Below are positions 18,807 through 37,465 of a stretch of DNA of 64,000 nt, in pieces. The first letter of the stretch is position 1. Each line of letters begins with the position of its first letter. The position numbers were made by a program, and so were the translations under genes. The notes beneath the pieces are model-generated. The model searched no databases, was not told the DNA's origin, and saw only the letters and a list, made by a program, of their open reading frames with translations. The stretch comes from Flavobacteriales bacterium (lineage in GTDB: Bacteria > Bacteroidota > Bacteroidia > Flavobacteriales > Flavobacteriaceae): assembly GCA_026993355.1 (NCBI GenBank), contig JALWTX010000008.1:124001-188000 (forward strand), given 5' to 3'.

Positions 18807-20078
18807 ATGTTACAAATTTCGCGTTTAAGAAACGATAAAGATGCTATTATTGAAGCCCTGAAAAAGCGTAATATTGAGGCGTCGGATTTAATAAACAAAG
18901 CCATCGAATTAGATGATTTAAGAAAAAAAACACAGCGGGAAAATGACGAACTTTTAGCAGAAATGAATAAATTGTCAAAAGAAATCGGACAATTATATAA
19001 AATGGGGGAACGGGAAAAGGCGGAGCTTTTAAAAGCTAAAACAGCTGAATTGAAAGAAAAGATAAAACAATTGTCACAAGACCTGGAACAGTATAAAATG
19101 GATTTGCAAGAGGTTCTTTATCAACTGCCCAATGTCCCAAATAAATTAGTTCCTTTTGGTAAAGATGAAGCTGACAATGAAGTAGTTTTTGAGTATGGCG
19201 ATGTATTACATATGCCTGATGATGCTTTGCCACATTGGGAGTTGGCTAAAAAATATGATATTATAGATTTTGATTTAGGAAATAAAATAACCGGCGCTGG
19301 TTTTCCTGTATATAAAGGAAAAGGGGCAAAATTTCAACGTGCTTTAATCAATTATTTTCTCGATAAAAATGAAGAAGCCGGCTACCGCGAAATGCAAGTG
19401 CCTCATTTGATTAATGAAGCCTCGGGGTATGGGACGGGGCAATTGCCTGACAAAGAAGGACAAATGTATTTTGTAGAACGTGATAATTTATATCTCATCC
19501 CCACAGCTGAAGTCCCCGTAACCAATTTATATCGCGATCAAATGCTATACGAAAATGATTTACCCATTAAAAATACGGCTTATACACCTTGTTTCCGGCG
19601 GGAAGCGGGTTCATATGGGGCTCATGTTCGGGGTTTAAACCGTTTGCACCAATTTGATAAGGTAGAAATTGTCCGTATTGAACATCCTGAGCGTTCTTAT
19701 CAAGCCTTAGATGAAATGGTAGAACATGTGAAACAAATCTTAATCGAATTAGGCTTGCCATTCCGTATTGTGCGTCTTTGCGGTGGTGATTTAGGTTTTA
19801 CCTCTGCCTTAACTTATGATTTTGAAGTATGGTCTGCTGCGCAAAAACGTTGGTTAGAGGTTAGTTCGGTTTCCAATTTTGAAGATTTCCAAGCTAACCG
19901 TTTGAAATTGCGATTTAAAAATAAAGAAGGTAAAAAACAATTAGTGCATACTTTAAATGGCAGTTCTTTGGCATTACCTCGTGTGGTAGCCGCCTTATTG
20001 GAAAATAATCAAACGGAACAAGGTACAAAAGTACCTGAAGTTTTACGTTCTTTTTTAGGCTTTGATTATATAAATTAG
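18807..20078 (+). CDS. serS: Seryl-tRNA synthetase
   Basis: N-terminal coiled coil; LYLIPTAEVPVTNLYRDQML, TPCFRREAGSYGAHVRGLNRLHQFDKVE, LNGSSLALPRVVAALLENNQ. Confidence 0.97.
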   Translation: MLQISRLRNDKDAIIEALKKRNIEASDLINKAIELDDLRKKTQRENDELLAEMNKLSKEIGQLYKMGEREKAELLKAKTAELKEKIKQLSQDLEQYKMDLQEVLYQLPNVPNKLVPFGKDEADNEVVFEYGDVLHMPDDALPHWELAKKYDIIDFDLGNKITGAGFPVYKGKGAKFQRALINYFLDKNEEAGYREMQVPHLINEASGYGTGQLPDKEGQMYFVERDNLYLIPTAEVPVTNLYRDQMLYENDLPIKNTAYTPCFRREAGSYGAHVRGLNRLHQFDKVEIVRIEHPERSYQALDEMVEHVKQILIELGLPFRIVRLCGGDLGFTSALTYDFEVWSAAQKRWLEVSSVSNFEDFQANRLKLRFKNKEGKKQLVHTLNGSSLALPRVVAALLENNQTEQGTKVPEVLRSFLGFDYIN

Positions 20079-20119: not shown

Positions 20120-20127
20120 TATATTTG
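20120..20127 (+). promoter_or_regulatory. TATATTTG promoter core of the aromatic leader transcript
   Basis: TAnnTTTG 18 bp upstream of the leader-peptide ATG. Confidence 0.5.
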
Positions 20128-20144
20128 TATCATAAATCAAGCAG

Positions 20145-20222
20145 ATGAACACATTGAATGCATATTTTAGTTTCTTTTTTTACTTTTATTTTTACGTAAA
20201 AGAAGGGACTTTGTATGCTTAA
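20145..20222 (+). CDS. Phe/Tyr-rich attenuation leader peptide MNTLNAYFSFFFYFYFYVKEGTLYA
   Basis: ATG..TAA, 25 codons: 6 Phe and 5 Tyr, with 10 of residues 7-17 aromatic. Lies upstream of a terminator and the Phe/Tyr operon; not in the supplied ORF track. Confidence 0.85.
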   Translation: MNTLNAYFSFFFYFYFYVKEGTLYA

Positions 20223-20253
20223 ATGACATCAATATTTTGCAATAGAAAGTCCC
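20205..20253 (+). promoter_or_regulatory. Candidate antiterminator stem (attenuator regions 2:3)
   Basis: GGGACTTT (20205-20212) pairs perfectly with AAAGTCCC (20246-20253). Region 2 overlaps the last codons of the leader ORF. Confidence 0.75.
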
Positions 20254-20273
20254 GATTTTTCGGGGCTTTTTTT
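20246..20273 (+). terminator. Attenuator terminator (regions 3:4)
   Basis: AAAGTCCCGA / TCGGGGCTTT stem (one G-U), small T loop, then a seven-T tract (20267-20273). Confidence 0.85.
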
Positions 20274-20275
20274 AT

Positions 20276-20309
20276 ACCTGTTAGGTTTCCAAAACCTGAT
20301 AGGTCTGAA
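20276..20309 (+). repeat. REP-like palindromic repeat, copy 1
   Basis: acctgttaggtttccaaaacctgataggtctgaa; immediately 5' of the RAYT gene. Confidence 0.8.
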
Positions 20310-20333
20310 TAAAAATAAATTAATAATAAACCA

Positions 20334-20927
20334 ATGAAAACAATACCATTTGAACCTTCAAAATATTATCATTTTTTTAATAGGGGTAATAATAAAGAAA
20401 ATATCTTTATTGAAGATGAAAACTATTACTATTTTTTAAGATTAGTTTCTAAATACTTACTACCTATAATTGATTTATATTCATATTGTTTATTACCTAA
20501 TCATTTTCATTTGGTTTTTAGAATAAAGGAAATACAAGATTTACCTATTGATTATCAAACAAATAAAAAAGAATTATATAGAGCTTTTTCTAATTTATTC
20601 AATGCATATACAAAAGCATTTAACAAACGGTATCAACGATCAGGAAATTTATTTAAAAAACATCCTGTTAAAAATTTAATTGATACAGAACAGTATTTAA
20701 GAAATGTGATTTTATATGTGAATACAAATCCTGATCATCATAATATTGAAAATTCATTAGATTATAAATTTTCATCGTATAACAAATTGATTTCAAGTGA
20801 TTCGTTATTATTGAATCAAGAAATTATTACATATTTATTTGATGACATTGAGAATTTTAAATTTGCTATACATTCTAAAAAAATGAATATAGAAATTCTA
20901 AAAGACATTTCGGAAATTGATGAATAA
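20334..20927 (+). mobile_element. REP-associated tyrosine transposase (RAYT, Y1/HUH family)
   Basis: YYHFFNRGNNKENIFIEDENYYYFLR, LLPNHFHLVFRI (HUH motif), RYQRSGNLFKKHPVKNLIDTEQYLRNVILYVNTNPDHH; flanked by REP-like palindromes. Confidence 0.9.
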
Positions 20928-20956
20928 CAGAATTAAGCAGGACAAGGATAAACTAA

Positions 20957-20991
20957 ACCTGTTAGGTTTCAAAAAACCTGATAGGTCTGAA
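20957..20991 (+). repeat. REP-like palindromic repeat, copy 2
   Basis: acctgttaggtttcaaaaaacctgataggtctgaa. Confidence 0.8.
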
Positions 20992-21030
20992 CAATAAAAC
21001 ATAAACAACTAATAATAAAGTAACTAAATA

Positions 21031-21070
21031 GACCTAGCAGGTCTACAAGACCTACCAGGTCTGCAAGGAT
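21031..21070 (+). repeat. Tandem REP-like half palindromes
   Basis: gacctagcaggtctacaagacctaccaggtctgcaaggat. Confidence 0.65.
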
Positions 21071-21077
21071 AAATAAG

Positions 21078-21111
21078 ACCTGTTAGGTTTCCAAAACCTG
21101 ATAGGTCTGAA
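21078..21111 (+). repeat. REP-like palindromic repeat, copy 3 (identical to copy 1)
   Basis: acctgttaggtttccaaaacctgataggtctgaa. Confidence 0.8.
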
Positions 21112-21149
21112 TAAAAAACATAAACAATTAATAATCAAATAATTAAATA

Positions 21150-21168
21150 GACCTATCAGGTCATGACC
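21150..21168 (+). repeat. Partial REP-like repeat
   Basis: gacctatcaggtcatgacc just upstream of pheA. Confidence 0.55.
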
Positions 21169-21185
21169 AATAAAACTACAAAAAC

Positions 21186-22007
21186 ATGAATATAGGCATA
21201 CAAGGCACCGTCGGTTCATTTCATTACGAAGTCGCTAAAAATTTGTTTGGCGAAAACAACCATTTTGTAGAATGTATGGATTTTAATGACATTCCCGTAT
21301 TGCTCAAACAAGGCAAAATAGACAAGGGCGTTATGGCAGTCGAAAATACGATTGCCGGCGCCATTCTGCCCAACTATGGTTTGATTGACGAGTATGATTT
21401 GCATATTGCCGGCGAATATTATTTGCCCATTCATCATCATTTGTTGGCATTACCCGGACAAACAGTTGCCGACATCAAAGAAGTATGGAGTCATCCTATG
21501 GCATTGTTGCAGTGTCGCAAATATTTGCGCAGTCACCCGCATATCAAGTTGGTCGAAGAAAAAGATACGGCCGAAATGGCAAAAATCATCCAACAAAAAC
21601 AACTCAAAGGCATTGCTGCCATTGCGGGCTATGAAGCCGCCAAAATTTATGATTTGGAGATTTTAGCTGAGAGCATTCAAACCAATCAAATCAATGCGAC
21701 GCGTTTTGTGGTATTGGATTTAAAAAACGGCGATACCGTGCAAGATTTTAACAAAGCTTCCATACGTTTTAAACTCTCGCACCAACCCGGCAGTTTGGTC
21801 AATGTACTGCAAATATTTAATCGGTATAATTTGAATATGAGTAAAATACAAAGCGTTCCGATTATTGATAAACCTTGGGAATACGCCTTTTTTGTCGATT
21901 TGTTGATTGACAACCTCGCAGATTACCAAATGGCAATGTATCAAGTAGCCCGCCAAGTTATCGAACTGAAAATTTTAGGAGAATACACCTCAATGAAAAA
22001 ACAATAA
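21186..22007 (+). CDS. pheA: Prephenate dehydratase with ACT-like domain
   Basis: IGIQGTVGSFHYEVAKNLFG...GVMAVENTIAGAILPNYGLID...IKEVWSHPMALLQCRKYL...NATRFVVL...SIRFKLSHQPGSLVNVLQIFNRYNLNMSKIQSVPI. Confidence 0.94.
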   Translation: MNIGIQGTVGSFHYEVAKNLFGENNHFVECMDFNDIPVLLKQGKIDKGVMAVENTIAGAILPNYGLIDEYDLHIAGEYYLPIHHHLLALPGQTVADIKEVWSHPMALLQCRKYLRSHPHIKLVEEKDTAEMAKIIQQKQLKGIAAIAGYEAAKIYDLEILAESIQTNQINATRFVVLDLKNGDTVQDFNKASIRFKLSHQPGSLVNVLQIFNRYNLNMSKIQSVPIIDKPWEYAFFVDLLIDNLADYQMAMYQVARQVIELKILGEYTSMKKQ

Positions 22008-23152
22008 TGCAAGCACAACGTCTCGAACACATACAAGAATATTACTTTTCGACCAAGCTCAAAGAAATTGCTCGCTTGCGTGCCGAAGGCAGACCTATTA
22101 TCAATTTGGGTATCGGTAGCCCCGATTTACCCCCGCCGGAAGCTGTCCGGCAAACTTTGGCAGCAATAGCATTACAGCCCGACACACACCAATACCAGAG
22201 TTACCGCGGCATTCCTGAATTACGACAAGCCATTGCCGGCTATTACCAAAAATATTTTAGAACCGGTTTGGATACCGAAACGGAAATTTTGCCGTTAATC
22301 GGGTCAAAGGAAGGGATTATGCACATCAGTATGGCGTTTCTCAACCAAGGCGACGAAGTTTTGTTGCCCGACCCGGGCTATATGACATACCGTTCAGCAA
22401 CTTTACTTGCCGGTGGCAAACCGGTGTATTACGCTTTAAATGAAAAAAATGATTATCTGCCCGATTTAAAAGCTTTGGCACAAACCGATTTGCGCAAAGT
22501 CAAATTGATGTGGCTCAATTATCCGCATATGCCTACGGGTGCCGTTGCCAACAAATATTTTTACCGGCAATTGATTGATTTTGCGTATAAACATCAAATT
22601 TTATTGGTAAATGACAATCCGTATAGTATGATTCTAAACTCACAACCTTTGAGTCTCTTGTCAATTTCGGGCGCAAAAGCAGTAGCCTTAGAATTAAATT
22701 CTTTAAGCAAATCGCATAATATGGCGGGTTGGCGTATCGGGATGCTATTAGGAAAAAAAGATTATATCGACACGGTGATGAAATTTAAAAGCCAAATGGA
22801 TAGCGGTATGTTTCTCGGTTTGCAAAAAGCGGCGGTTACTGCGCTGAACACATCGCCTGAATGGTTCGATAAGCTCAATAAAACATATAGCAGACGAAAA
22901 AGTATCGTATTAAAAATTTGTGACGCACTCAATTTACAAGCCCGCCCCAATCAAAGCGGTTTGTTTGTTTGGGCAAAACTGCCCGATGGACAAAACAGCC
23001 GTGATTTTACTGATCGTTTACTTAAAGAAAAAGACATTTTTCTAGCGCTGGGCTTTATATTCGGACAACATTCCGATGATTATGTGCGCATTTCATTAAC
23101 GAACAGCGAAGCTATTTTAACGGAAACTTTAAATAGAATCAAACAAAAATGA
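22007..23152 (+). CDS. PLP-dependent class I/II aminotransferase (likely aromatic/prephenate pathway)
   Basis: INLGIGSPDLPPPEAVRQ...YQSYRGIPELRQAIAGYY...NDNPYSMIL...SLSKSHNMAGWRIGM; translationally coupled in the operon. Confidence 0.9.
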   Translation: MQAQRLEHIQEYYFSTKLKEIARLRAEGRPIINLGIGSPDLPPPEAVRQTLAAIALQPDTHQYQSYRGIPELRQAIAGYYQKYFRTGLDTETEILPLIGSKEGIMHISMAFLNQGDEVLLPDPGYMTYRSATLLAGGKPVYYALNEKNDYLPDLKALAQTDLRKVKLMWLNYPHMPTGAVANKYFYRQLIDFAYKHQILLVNDNPYSMILNSQPLSLLSISGAKAVALELNSLSKSHNMAGWRIGMLLGKKDYIDTVMKFKSQMDSGMFLGLQKAAVTALNTSPEWFDKLNKTYSRRKSIVLKICDALNLQARPNQSGLFVWAKLPDGQNSRDFTDRLLKEKDIFLALGFIFGQHSDDYVRISLTNSEAILTETLNRIKQK

Positions 23153-24003
23153 AGGAGAATAATATCACTAAAATAGGCATCGTCGGATTGGGACTCATAG
23201 GCGGTTCCTTCGGGTTGGCATTGCAAAATGATAAAACTATCCGGCTATACGGACAAGATAAATATCACTTGGATAAGGCACTGGAATTAGGTTTGGTTCA
23301 CGAAAGTTTAACTGATGATTTGATACCACAAATGGACATCATTATCATCGCTACACCGGTCGATACGATACCGCAAATTGCTAAAAATGTTCTCGACAAT
23401 ATCAAACCCGGTGCATTGGTATTTGATACCGGCTCAACCAAACACAAAATAGCCCAAGCCATAACAGGACATCCGAATCGCGGTAATTTTTTGTTGGCGC
23501 ATCCCATTGCCGGGACCGAATATTCCGGACCCGAAGCGGCATTTTCCAGTTTGTTTAAAGGCAAAATCAATATGATTTGTGATACCCATCAAACACGTCC
23601 CGAAATTTTAGAAAAAGCCCAACAAATCTTTGATAATATGGGCATGCAAACACTTGAAATGGACAGCCAAGAACACGACAAACATATCGCCTATGTCTCG
23701 CATTTGTCGCATATCAGCTCGTTTATGTTGGGCAAAACGGTATTGGATTTGGAAAAAGACGAACAAAACATTTTTACCATGGCAGGTTCAGGTTTTGCCT
23801 CAACCGTGCGGCTTGCTAAAAGTTCGCCCGACACTTGGACCCCGATTTTTATGGAAAACAAGATGCCGATTTTACAAGCATTGGAGGAATACATTGATAA
23901 TTTACAAGCTTTTAAGGTCTTATTATATCGTGAAAACAGGTCAAAGATGAAAGCCCTTTTACAAAAAATTAATCATATCGGACAAATAATAAATAAACTT
24001 TAA
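23149..24003 (+). CDS. tyrA: Prephenate dehydrogenase
   Basis: KIGIVGLGLIGGSFGLAL, DTGSTKHKIAQAI, HPIAGTEYSGPEAAFSSLFKGK, YVSHLSHISSFML. Confidence 0.93.
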   Translation: MKENNITKIGIVGLGLIGGSFGLALQNDKTIRLYGQDKYHLDKALELGLVHESLTDDLIPQMDIIIIATPVDTIPQIAKNVLDNIKPGALVFDTGSTKHKIAQAITGHPNRGNFLLAHPIAGTEYSGPEAAFSSLFKGKINMICDTHQTRPEILEKAQQIFDNMGMQTLEMDSQEHDKHIAYVSHLSHISSFMLGKTVLDLEKDEQNIFTMAGSGFASTVRLAKSSPDTWTPIFMENKMPILQALEEYIDNLQAFKVLLYRENRSKMKALLQKINHIGQIINKL

Positions 24004-24060: not shown

Positions 24061-25140
24061 ATGCAAACAAAAAAACTCAATTCATGGTTGAAGCAAATAG
24101 CCCCGAAATACCCTTTAATGATTGCCGGACCTTGTAGCGCCGAAACCGAAGAACAAGTCTTAAAAACAGCCCGCGGCTTGGTCGATGAGCGGGTGCAAGT
24201 GTTTAGAGCCGGCGTATGGAAACCCCGTACACGTCCCGGAAATTTTGAAGGACACGGCGAAAAAGCTTTGCCTTGGCTCAAAAAAGTCAAGGAAGAAACC
24301 GGTATGAAAATCGCTATTGAAATTGCCAATGCCCAACATGCTGAATTGGCTTTAAAATACGATATTGATATGCTTTGGATCGGTGCTCGCACGTCGGTTA
24401 ATCCGTTTGCCGTGCAAGAAATAGCCGATGCTATCAAAGGAAGCGGTAAAGTCATCTTGATTAAAAATCCCATTAATCCGGATTTGTCATTATGGATTGG
24501 TGCCGTAGAACGGTTCCATAAAGTCGGGATGGCGGATATCGGGGTGATTCATCGTGGATTTTCATCTTTTCGTCCGGGCGCTTATCGCAATGAACCCAAT
24601 TGGCAAATAGCTTTGGATTTTAAAAACCGGTACCCCAATATTCCCATGATTTTAGATCCCTCTCATATATGCGGACGCCGCGATTGTATTTACGATATGG
24701 CCCAAATGGGATTGGACTTACAATACCAAGGTTTTATGATTGAATCGCACTATAATCCGGATGACGCTTGGAGTGACGCCAAACAACAAGTAACACCGCA
24801 AACTTTGTTGCAAATTATTGATAAACTTTGTTTGCGTAAACAACAATTTAAAGACCCCGAAGCCCTTGACAAACTCGAATTTTATCGCAGTCAAATCAAC
24901 CAATTGGATGATGAATTACTAAAACTTTTGGCAGAACGCATGCAGGTGGCCCAAGAAATCGGTCGTATTAAAAAGCAAAAAAGTGTCGCCGTCTTACAAC
25001 GGGACCGGTGGCAAGAAATTTTGCAAAAAGCTATTGAAAAAAGCCGGGAATTGGATTTGTCGGAAAAATTTATCCAACGATTATTTAAAGCCATTCATCA
25101 AGAAAGTATCGAAAAACAGGAACGGATTTTGAAAGAATAG
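24061..25140 (+). CDS. Bifunctional DAHP synthase / chorismate mutase
   Basis: PLMIAGPCSAETEEQVLKTARGL, RAGVWKPRTRPGNFEGHG, DPSHICGRRD; C-terminal AroQ-type CM (LDKLEFYRSQINQLDDELLKLLAERMQVAQEIGRIKKQ). Track GTG start at 24028 lies inside the REP-like repeat. Confidence 0.94.
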   Translation: MQTKKLNSWLKQIAPKYPLMIAGPCSAETEEQVLKTARGLVDERVQVFRAGVWKPRTRPGNFEGHGEKALPWLKKVKEETGMKIAIEIANAQHAELALKYDIDMLWIGARTSVNPFAVQEIADAIKGSGKVILIKNPINPDLSLWIGAVERFHKVGMADIGVIHRGFSSFRPGAYRNEPNWQIALDFKNRYPNIPMILDPSHICGRRDCIYDMAQMGLDLQYQGFMIESHYNPDDAWSDAKQQVTPQTLLQIIDKLCLRKQQFKDPEALDKLEFYRSQINQLDDELLKLLAERMQVAQEIGRIKKQKSVAVLQRDRWQEILQKAIEKSRELDLSEKFIQRLFKAIHQESIEKQERILKE

Positions 25141-37219: not shown

Positions 37220-37465
37220 GTGCAAAATGAGGAAGTATTTTGACGATAAAACAATTTATATCTTCTATCTATCTTCTTTCAATCTCTTTTTAATAAATTC
37301 ATAACAATTTGGAAGATATTTTGAATTTTATTCAAAAAATGAAAATATTGCCGAATTTTAACATTTTGATTAAATTTTTATACTTATTTTCAACAAAAAA
37401 TTTAAAGAGGCAGCTGAAAATCTTTAAAAGAGTAAGCAAAAATTAATAACCAAATAACACTAACT

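Follow-up and report, generated by a model that had tools for sequence, protein, structure and literature searches.

The region between serS and pheA in this Flavobacteriales genome contains a very short ORF crowded with Phe and Tyr codons and followed by a hairpin and a T tract, which raises the question of whether these elements form a switch that adjusts the downstream Phe/Tyr operon to the supply of its products. A first-pass annotation of the window (the whole stretch of DNA analysed, 64,000 nt) had read the region as a Phe/Tyr attenuator from its geometry. Our comparative analysis argues strongly for this reading, in that the region would very probably act as a ribosome-mediated transcription attenuator responding to how much charged aromatic tRNA is available. 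The features concerned are as follows.

18807-20078, same strand as the leader ORF: serS, the upstream neighbour, with 66 nt from its end to the leader ORF
20120-20273, + strand: switch region, between serS and the RAYT-like ORF
20120-20127, + strand: promoter -7 box TATATTTG (Bacteroidota TAnnTTTG), 25 nt before the leader ATG
20145-20222, + strand: leader peptide ORF MNTLNAYFSFFFYFYFYVKEGTLYA with its stop codon, 25 codons, ATG start, conserved upstream of pheA
20163-20195, + strand: control codons 7-17 (Y F S F F F Y F Y F Y), most of region 1
20169-20210, + strand: 1:2 hairpin, aromatic codons with GUAAAAGAAGGGACUU, -13.4 kcal/mol, z -4.1 in the window
20205-20212, + strand: region 2 GGGACTTT, 5' arm of the antiterminator, inside the leader ORF
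20246-20253, + strand: region 3 AAAGTCCC, the arm common to both helices
20245-20270, + strand: predicted intrinsic terminator hairpin 3:4 (GAAAGTCCCGA tttt TCGGGGCTTTT), -15.7 kcal/mol
20267-20273, + strand: T7 tract, about where the premature 3' end is expected; a T tract follows the stem in relatives
20334-20927, + strand: RAYT-like ORF, an insertion downstream of the attenuator and ahead of pheA, outside the switch
21186-22007, + strand: pheA, prephenate dehydratase (Pfam PDT, 4.2e-54), the first biosynthetic gene under the proposed control
22007-23152, + strand: class I/II aminotransferase (Pfam PF00155, Aminotran_1_2, 8.2e-57)
23149-24003, + strand: tyrA, prephenate dehydrogenase (Pfam PDH_N/PDH_C)
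24061-25140, + strand: DAHP synthase-chorismate mutase fusion (Pfam DAHP_synth_1 and CM_2)

Layout of the locus and its competing helices

Pfam confirmed all four downstream genes that the first-pass annotation had assigned (prephenate dehydratase, aminotransferase, prephenate dehydrogenase and DAHP synthase/chorismate mutase), and by these assignments the products of the operon are Phe and Tyr, with DAHP synthase included. The claimed TAnnTTTG core is likewise present, as TATATTTG. Since the main text of a Flavobacterium psychrophilum study places this box at -12 to -5 (PMC9723704), transcription of the window's leader should start near 20132, giving a 5' UTR of about 13 nt. Among the relatives, 47 of 135 leaders had TANNTTTG in the 80 nt preceding them, against 9.2 expected, and its position peaked sharply 25-27 nt ahead of the leader ATG. 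The composition claimed for the leader ORF was also borne out, with 6 Phe and 5 Tyr residues in total and 10 aromatic residues among the 11 at positions 7-17. Translation in Bacteroidota starts without Shine-Dalgarno sequences. The leaders favour A at -3 and -6, which agrees with the Kozak-like initiation reported for F. johnsoniae (PMC6847099); the window's own leader has C at -3 in place of the usual A.

The RAYT-like ORF matches Pfam Y1_Tnp only at E 0.03 and carries the HUH-type motif NHFHLVF. It adjoins pheA in genome G006 too, and is absent there in the relatives G001, G004 and G009. The inserted segment between the attenuator and pheA (20274-21170) comprises this ORF and several ACCTGTTAGGTTT...AAACCTGATAGGT palindromes, and in RAYT-less relatives such as G001 the palindromes alone remain. 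In the window, the RAYT gene would be co-transcribed under the attenuator.

Both pairings that had been proposed for the switch can be traced base by base. GGGACTTT and AAAGTCCC are perfectly complementary, and region 3 extends to a stem with TCGGGGCTTT (20260-20269, one G-U pair), after which come the seven T residues, the T tract overlapping the foot of the terminator stem. The whole leader fold has an energy of -51.4 kcal/mol (z -7.25), and none of 200 shuffles was as stable; it includes the 3:4 terminator together with a 1:2 helix. The 1:2 helix, absent from the first-pass annotation, dominates the untranslated fold, in which the partner of the aromatic codons is formed by the purine-rich codons that follow the aromatic run; this helix is clear only in the window's genus, and across the family its support is weak (mean z -1.4).

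Conservation of the leader and covariation of both helices

Our survey of the regions upstream of pheA covered 70 Flavobacteriaceae genomes, a further 80 named loci taken from a second genome collection, and loci of other families. A leader was taken to be an ATG-initiated ORF with at least 6 aromatic residues in ten that ends at most 400 nt from pheA; the window's own leader ends 963 nt from pheA because of the RAYT insertion. Such a leader was present in 67 of the 70 genomes and at 77 of the 80 further loci, making an unselected total of 144/150. The exceptions included two loci truncated by a contig end (L004, in the window's genus, and L124), one whose leader lies 577 nt upstream (L021) and one with an aromatic run that lacks an ATG (L150), while the two loci L017 and L163 (Echinicola) had no leader upstream of pheA. 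A stricter dense-run score, which required an ATG ORF within 300 nt to have F, Y or W at 7 or more of 10 residues, was reached by 99% of pheA upstream regions (pre-selected for a leader), by 1.5% of reverse complements and by 0.1% of shuffles. What lies upstream varies among the relatives, from serS or other genes to a divergent gene of ABC-transporter-like type, so that the element travels with pheA. The first-pass annotation had staked its reading on relatives without the RAYT insertion, and there the aromatic codons and both stems are conserved, with compensatory changes; relatives that have no RAYT at pheA and yet carry the leader include G001, G003, G004, G008 and G011.

Beyond the family, the leader recurs elsewhere in the order and class. 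Of 26 loci sampled in other families of the class, 15 had a recognisable leader, and the same spacing between codons and hairpin was seen in 13 of the 14 whose terminator could be called. In another family, whose pheA is divergent, none of eight loci had a leader. At three loci of one family (L010, L034 and L035, family f16), a reduced leader, MNRLENTFNSFYFIYDR, lies about 80 nt before pheA and scores below the threshold; it may be a degenerate or alternative form. No convincing leader and terminator were found at the 22 pheA loci (L084-L087 and L235-L252) of a family with genomes of 0.3-0.6 Mb, where the aromatic scores were at shuffle level and the sole candidate above the threshold, L086, had no terminator. 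Judging by size and order, these genomes probably belong to insect symbionts, and the absence of the leader suggests that attenuation has been lost in host-provisioning symbionts, a loss that might be expected if their cells supply aromatic amino acids to the host.

The pairing of region 2 with region 3 was then evaluated, region 2 being called as the best duplex of the terminator 5' arm with the stretch from the last aromatic codon to the terminator. Of 148 loci, 128 had a 2:3 duplex better than shuffled sequence at p <= 0.05, and 102 reached p <= 0.01; in some Flavobacterium leaders (L041, L052 and L166) the duplex was short and no better than shuffles. When arms were swapped between species, the energy changed from -10.9 kcal/mol for each leader's own duplex to -7.4 kcal/mol, a mean loss of about 3.5 kcal/mol (z about -17 by permutations). 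Across 57 diverse leaders in one alignment, compensatory (double-change) cells numbered 60 for the 2:3 helix (20.2 in shuffles) and 58 for the 3:4 helix (15.4 in shuffles); none of 500 shuffles reached either number, although these shuffle statistics take no account of relatedness, which inflates them. One leader, L111, entered the alignment with hand-set bounds that clip its T tract, which should leave the counted helices unaffected. Compensatory changes fell at 8 of the 10 aligned pairs of the 3:4 helix, of which 96.8% of cells were paired. Sliding the partner by 1-3 columns abolished the covariation of both 2:3 and 3:4, and these slide controls and the species-swap test agree in direction with the shuffle-based result. 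Region 3 sites pair in both helices and include all four letters, and a mean of 7.4 positions per species are dually paired.

The two helices are similar in strength, with median energies of -14.0 kcal/mol for 2:3 and -13.3 kcal/mol for 3:4, and once region 4 is included folding alone prefers 3:4 at most stall positions. Thermodynamics alone thus cannot choose between them, and antitermination would have to be kinetic, set by the order of synthesis, as in classical attenuators.

Ribosome spacing, control codons and rival explanations

Counted from the first nucleotide of the last aromatic codon, the first paired base of region 2 follows at a median distance of 13 nt (SD 2.0, 135 leaders). This spacing falls within 10-17 nt in 96% of the leaders, compared with 18% for shuffled sequence, whereas relative to the stop codon the start of region 2 floats (SD 8.2), from about 30 nt upstream to 7 nt downstream. 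In E. coli toeprints, the leading edge of the ribosome lies about 12-13 nt past the first base of the A-site codon. With an edge of this length, the last aromatic codon is approximately the last stall site that leaves region 2 free, and the combination of a fixed codon-to-region 2 spacing with a floating stop is what should be expected for a ribosome stalled at the last aromatic codon. A stall scan of the window, with the footprint edge set at the E. coli value of +12 from the first A-site codon base, left the 2:3 helix whole (-16.8 kcal/mol) for ribosomes at codons 10-16, kept it nearly whole at codon 17 (-12.9 kcal/mol), weakened it severely at codon 18 (-4.8 kcal/mol), and removed it from codon 19 onwards (about -1 kcal/mol or less). 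Codon 24, also Tyr, falls outside this permissive limit, so a stall there should not antiterminate.

Viewed as a whole, the locus has a short ORF enriched for the amino acids that the operon makes, with coding-type conservation, an intrinsic terminator (hairpin plus T tract) between the leader and the first structural gene, a 2:3 antiterminator mutually exclusive with that terminator through the common arm, and control codons sited so that, given the E. coli footprint length, a stall would free region 2 and completion would cover it. The leader, both helices, their covariation, the codon conservation and the spacing can be read directly from the sequences compared; the transcription start, termination, ribosome stalling and the sensing of both Phe and Tyr are what we infer from them. 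The attenuation geometry originally claimed is thus supported by the conserved leader, the covarying 2:3 and 3:4 helices and the fixed spacing. On this basis, the switch may be pictured as follows. Transcription would begin about 13 nt ahead of the 25-codon leader ORF. With ample Phe-tRNA and Tyr-tRNA, the ribosome would move past the aromatic codons, finish the ORF and mask region 2, so that the 3:4 hairpin would form and RNA polymerase would halt near 20273. When Phe or Tyr is scarce, the ribosome would stall at one of codons 7-17, its leading edge reaching just to region 2 even at the last aromatic codon; the free region 2 would then pair with region 3 before region 4 is synthesized, no terminator would form, and the pheA, aminotransferase, tyrA and DAHP synthase genes would be transcribed. 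If the leader were left untranslated, the U-rich region 1 would pair with region 2 and the terminator would again form.

Which amino acids the leader reads was examined through its codons. Phe is the commoner residue (a mean of 5.6 per leader in 137 leaders, compared with 3.3 for Tyr) and provides the last aromatic codon in 103 of the 137, and both facts could be taken to mean that the same attenuator senses Phe only, with the Tyr codons as passengers. This is unlikely, though it deserves some weight, because Tyr is present in 137 of 137 leaders and occupies position -3 from the last aromatic codon in 58%, and the operon makes Tyr too. Moreover, among single-base differences in the control codons, counted over sequence pairs in the window's genus, 36 were synonymous and 36 non-synonymous; 31 of the latter were F-Y exchanges and none changed an aromatic residue to another kind, although two thirds of the possible changes would be of that sort. 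The simplest reading would be that selection acts for aromatic codons of either kind, and the switch would then sense both Phe and Tyr, as well as Trp where present. A Trp codon occurs in 80 of the 137 leaders, mostly at two places inside the permissive zone; since many relatives' leaders hold Trp, "aromatic" is a better label than "Phe+Tyr".

Explanations that dispense with attenuation by a leader peptide fare worse. An ORF that is short and hydrophobic and ends ahead of a terminator could encode a functional small peptide, such as a membrane peptide or a type I toxin, with the hairpin merely terminating its transcript, but the residues are F/Y/W and not L/I/V/A, the C-terminal length and sequence vary freely while the codon-to-hairpin spacing is fixed, the ORF is always ahead of pheA, and region 2 tracks the terminator arm, all of which make this very improbable. 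To about the same slight degree we would credit a ligand- or tRNA-binding RNA (T-box or riboswitch) as the controller of the terminator: a conserved structured 5' element with a terminator and an antiterminator would fit it, but Rfam searches of the switch region at gathering and permissive thresholds assigned no family and revealed no known aptamer or specifier domain, and there is no conserved aptamer between regions 2 and 3, where the spacer varies in length and sequence. The best sub-threshold Rfam match was RF01859 (Phe_leader), whose 28.2 bits against a cut-off of 55 leave the region outside that family. Least probable of all is that the hairpin simply terminates serS and the ORF arose by chance; in the window the ORF does begin, in the orientation of serS, 66 nt after that gene ends, but the upstream neighbour differs between relatives, many of which have a long divergent, ABC-transporter-like ORF there and hence no transcript needing a terminator, and chance ORFs of this type are as rare as the 1.5% of reverse complements given above. 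A ribosome-mediated attenuator remains our preferred reading.

Some further observations concern the same genome. On contig C14, upstream of a trpE-like gene (locus L232), a separate leader, MTLFIAKFWWRLTCSITG and its stop codon, contains tandem Trp and is also accompanied by a TATATTTG box and a terminator; it is likely a trp attenuator. A HisG search for a his leader in this genome (G000, 99% complete) found none, and histidine biosynthesis may be absent from it. A genome search for six consecutive F/Y codons proved unspecific (38 hits per strand compared with 50-58 for the reversed pattern) and so cannot find further leaders in the window's genome. Elsewhere in the window, a DUF805b RNA motif (RF02914) at 37404-37438 on the + strand was the sole gathering-level Rfam match.

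Relation to known attenuators and significance

The E. coli pheA attenuator (pheL) has a Phe-rich leader peptide, alternative hairpins 1:2/2:3/3:4 and pheA downstream, all of which the present switch shares. In contrast to pheL, the leader here mixes Phe and Tyr and precedes a four-gene Phe/Tyr operon, and region 2 usually lies within the ORF while the stop codon floats. One leader may read more than one amino acid tied to its operon, as in E. coli ilvGMEDA and thrABC, and the present leader would resemble these in serving several operon-linked amino acids, but the amino acids differ and Phe and Tyr are here interchangeable by one base change.

Closer to the window, an attenuator was predicted for the Bacteroides thetaiotaomicron operon pheA > hisHb > aroA-aroQ > tyrA in 2005 (Table 7, Merino database; PMC1173090); it has the same operon content in the same phylum, but it is a prediction for which the text covered gives no leader peptide or amino-acid specificity. 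In F. psychrophilum, RNA-seq revealed in 2021 a structured 5' element upstream of the same gene in the same family, conserved in other genera and without an Rfam hit, and the authors suggested in general terms that there are clues to leader-peptide attenuation before amino-acid operons; the main text gives no peptide, codons, helices or spacing for it (PMC9723704). Short candidate uORFs with both Phe and Tyr codons were placed ahead of shikimate-pathway genes in five selected genomes (PMC6429828, Fig. 6b), but the passages covered name no Bacteroidota genome among those analysed, and common descent was not demonstrated. A survey of premature terminators mentions neither Bacteroidetes nor pheA in its text (PMC2965389). 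Given the 2005 prediction and the 2021 5' element, the element itself was already known in its broad lines, and the suggestion that it is possibly undescribed holds only for the mixed aromatic leader, the covarying helices and the ribosome-length spacing: in the papers covered, a scope outside which the likeliest source (Lopatovskaya 2010) falls, we found no earlier account of these features or of the peptide.

A broader picture, to which we give about an even chance, is that one ancient, class-wide attenuator sums the supply of every aromatic aminoacyl-tRNA, through codons for Phe, Tyr and often a single Trp, and controls the whole Phe/Tyr branch including DAHP synthase. It would do so without Shine-Dalgarno initiation and with its last aromatic codon one ribosome edge (13 nt) before the antiterminator arm, such that the leaders would form a natural ruler of the ribosome footprint, and it would have been lost in tiny-genome symbionts that keep pheA.

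Overall, these results make a strong comparative case, from three-way covariation and a fixed codon-to-hairpin spacing, for the mechanism of a leader-peptide attenuator in Bacteroidota, where such switches have so far been only predicted or suggested, as far as the literature found goes. They imply that many genomes hold an unannotated peptide and switch before the pheA operon, and they offer a family ready for Rfam, in which Phe-only and summed aromatic sensing become directly testable alternatives.
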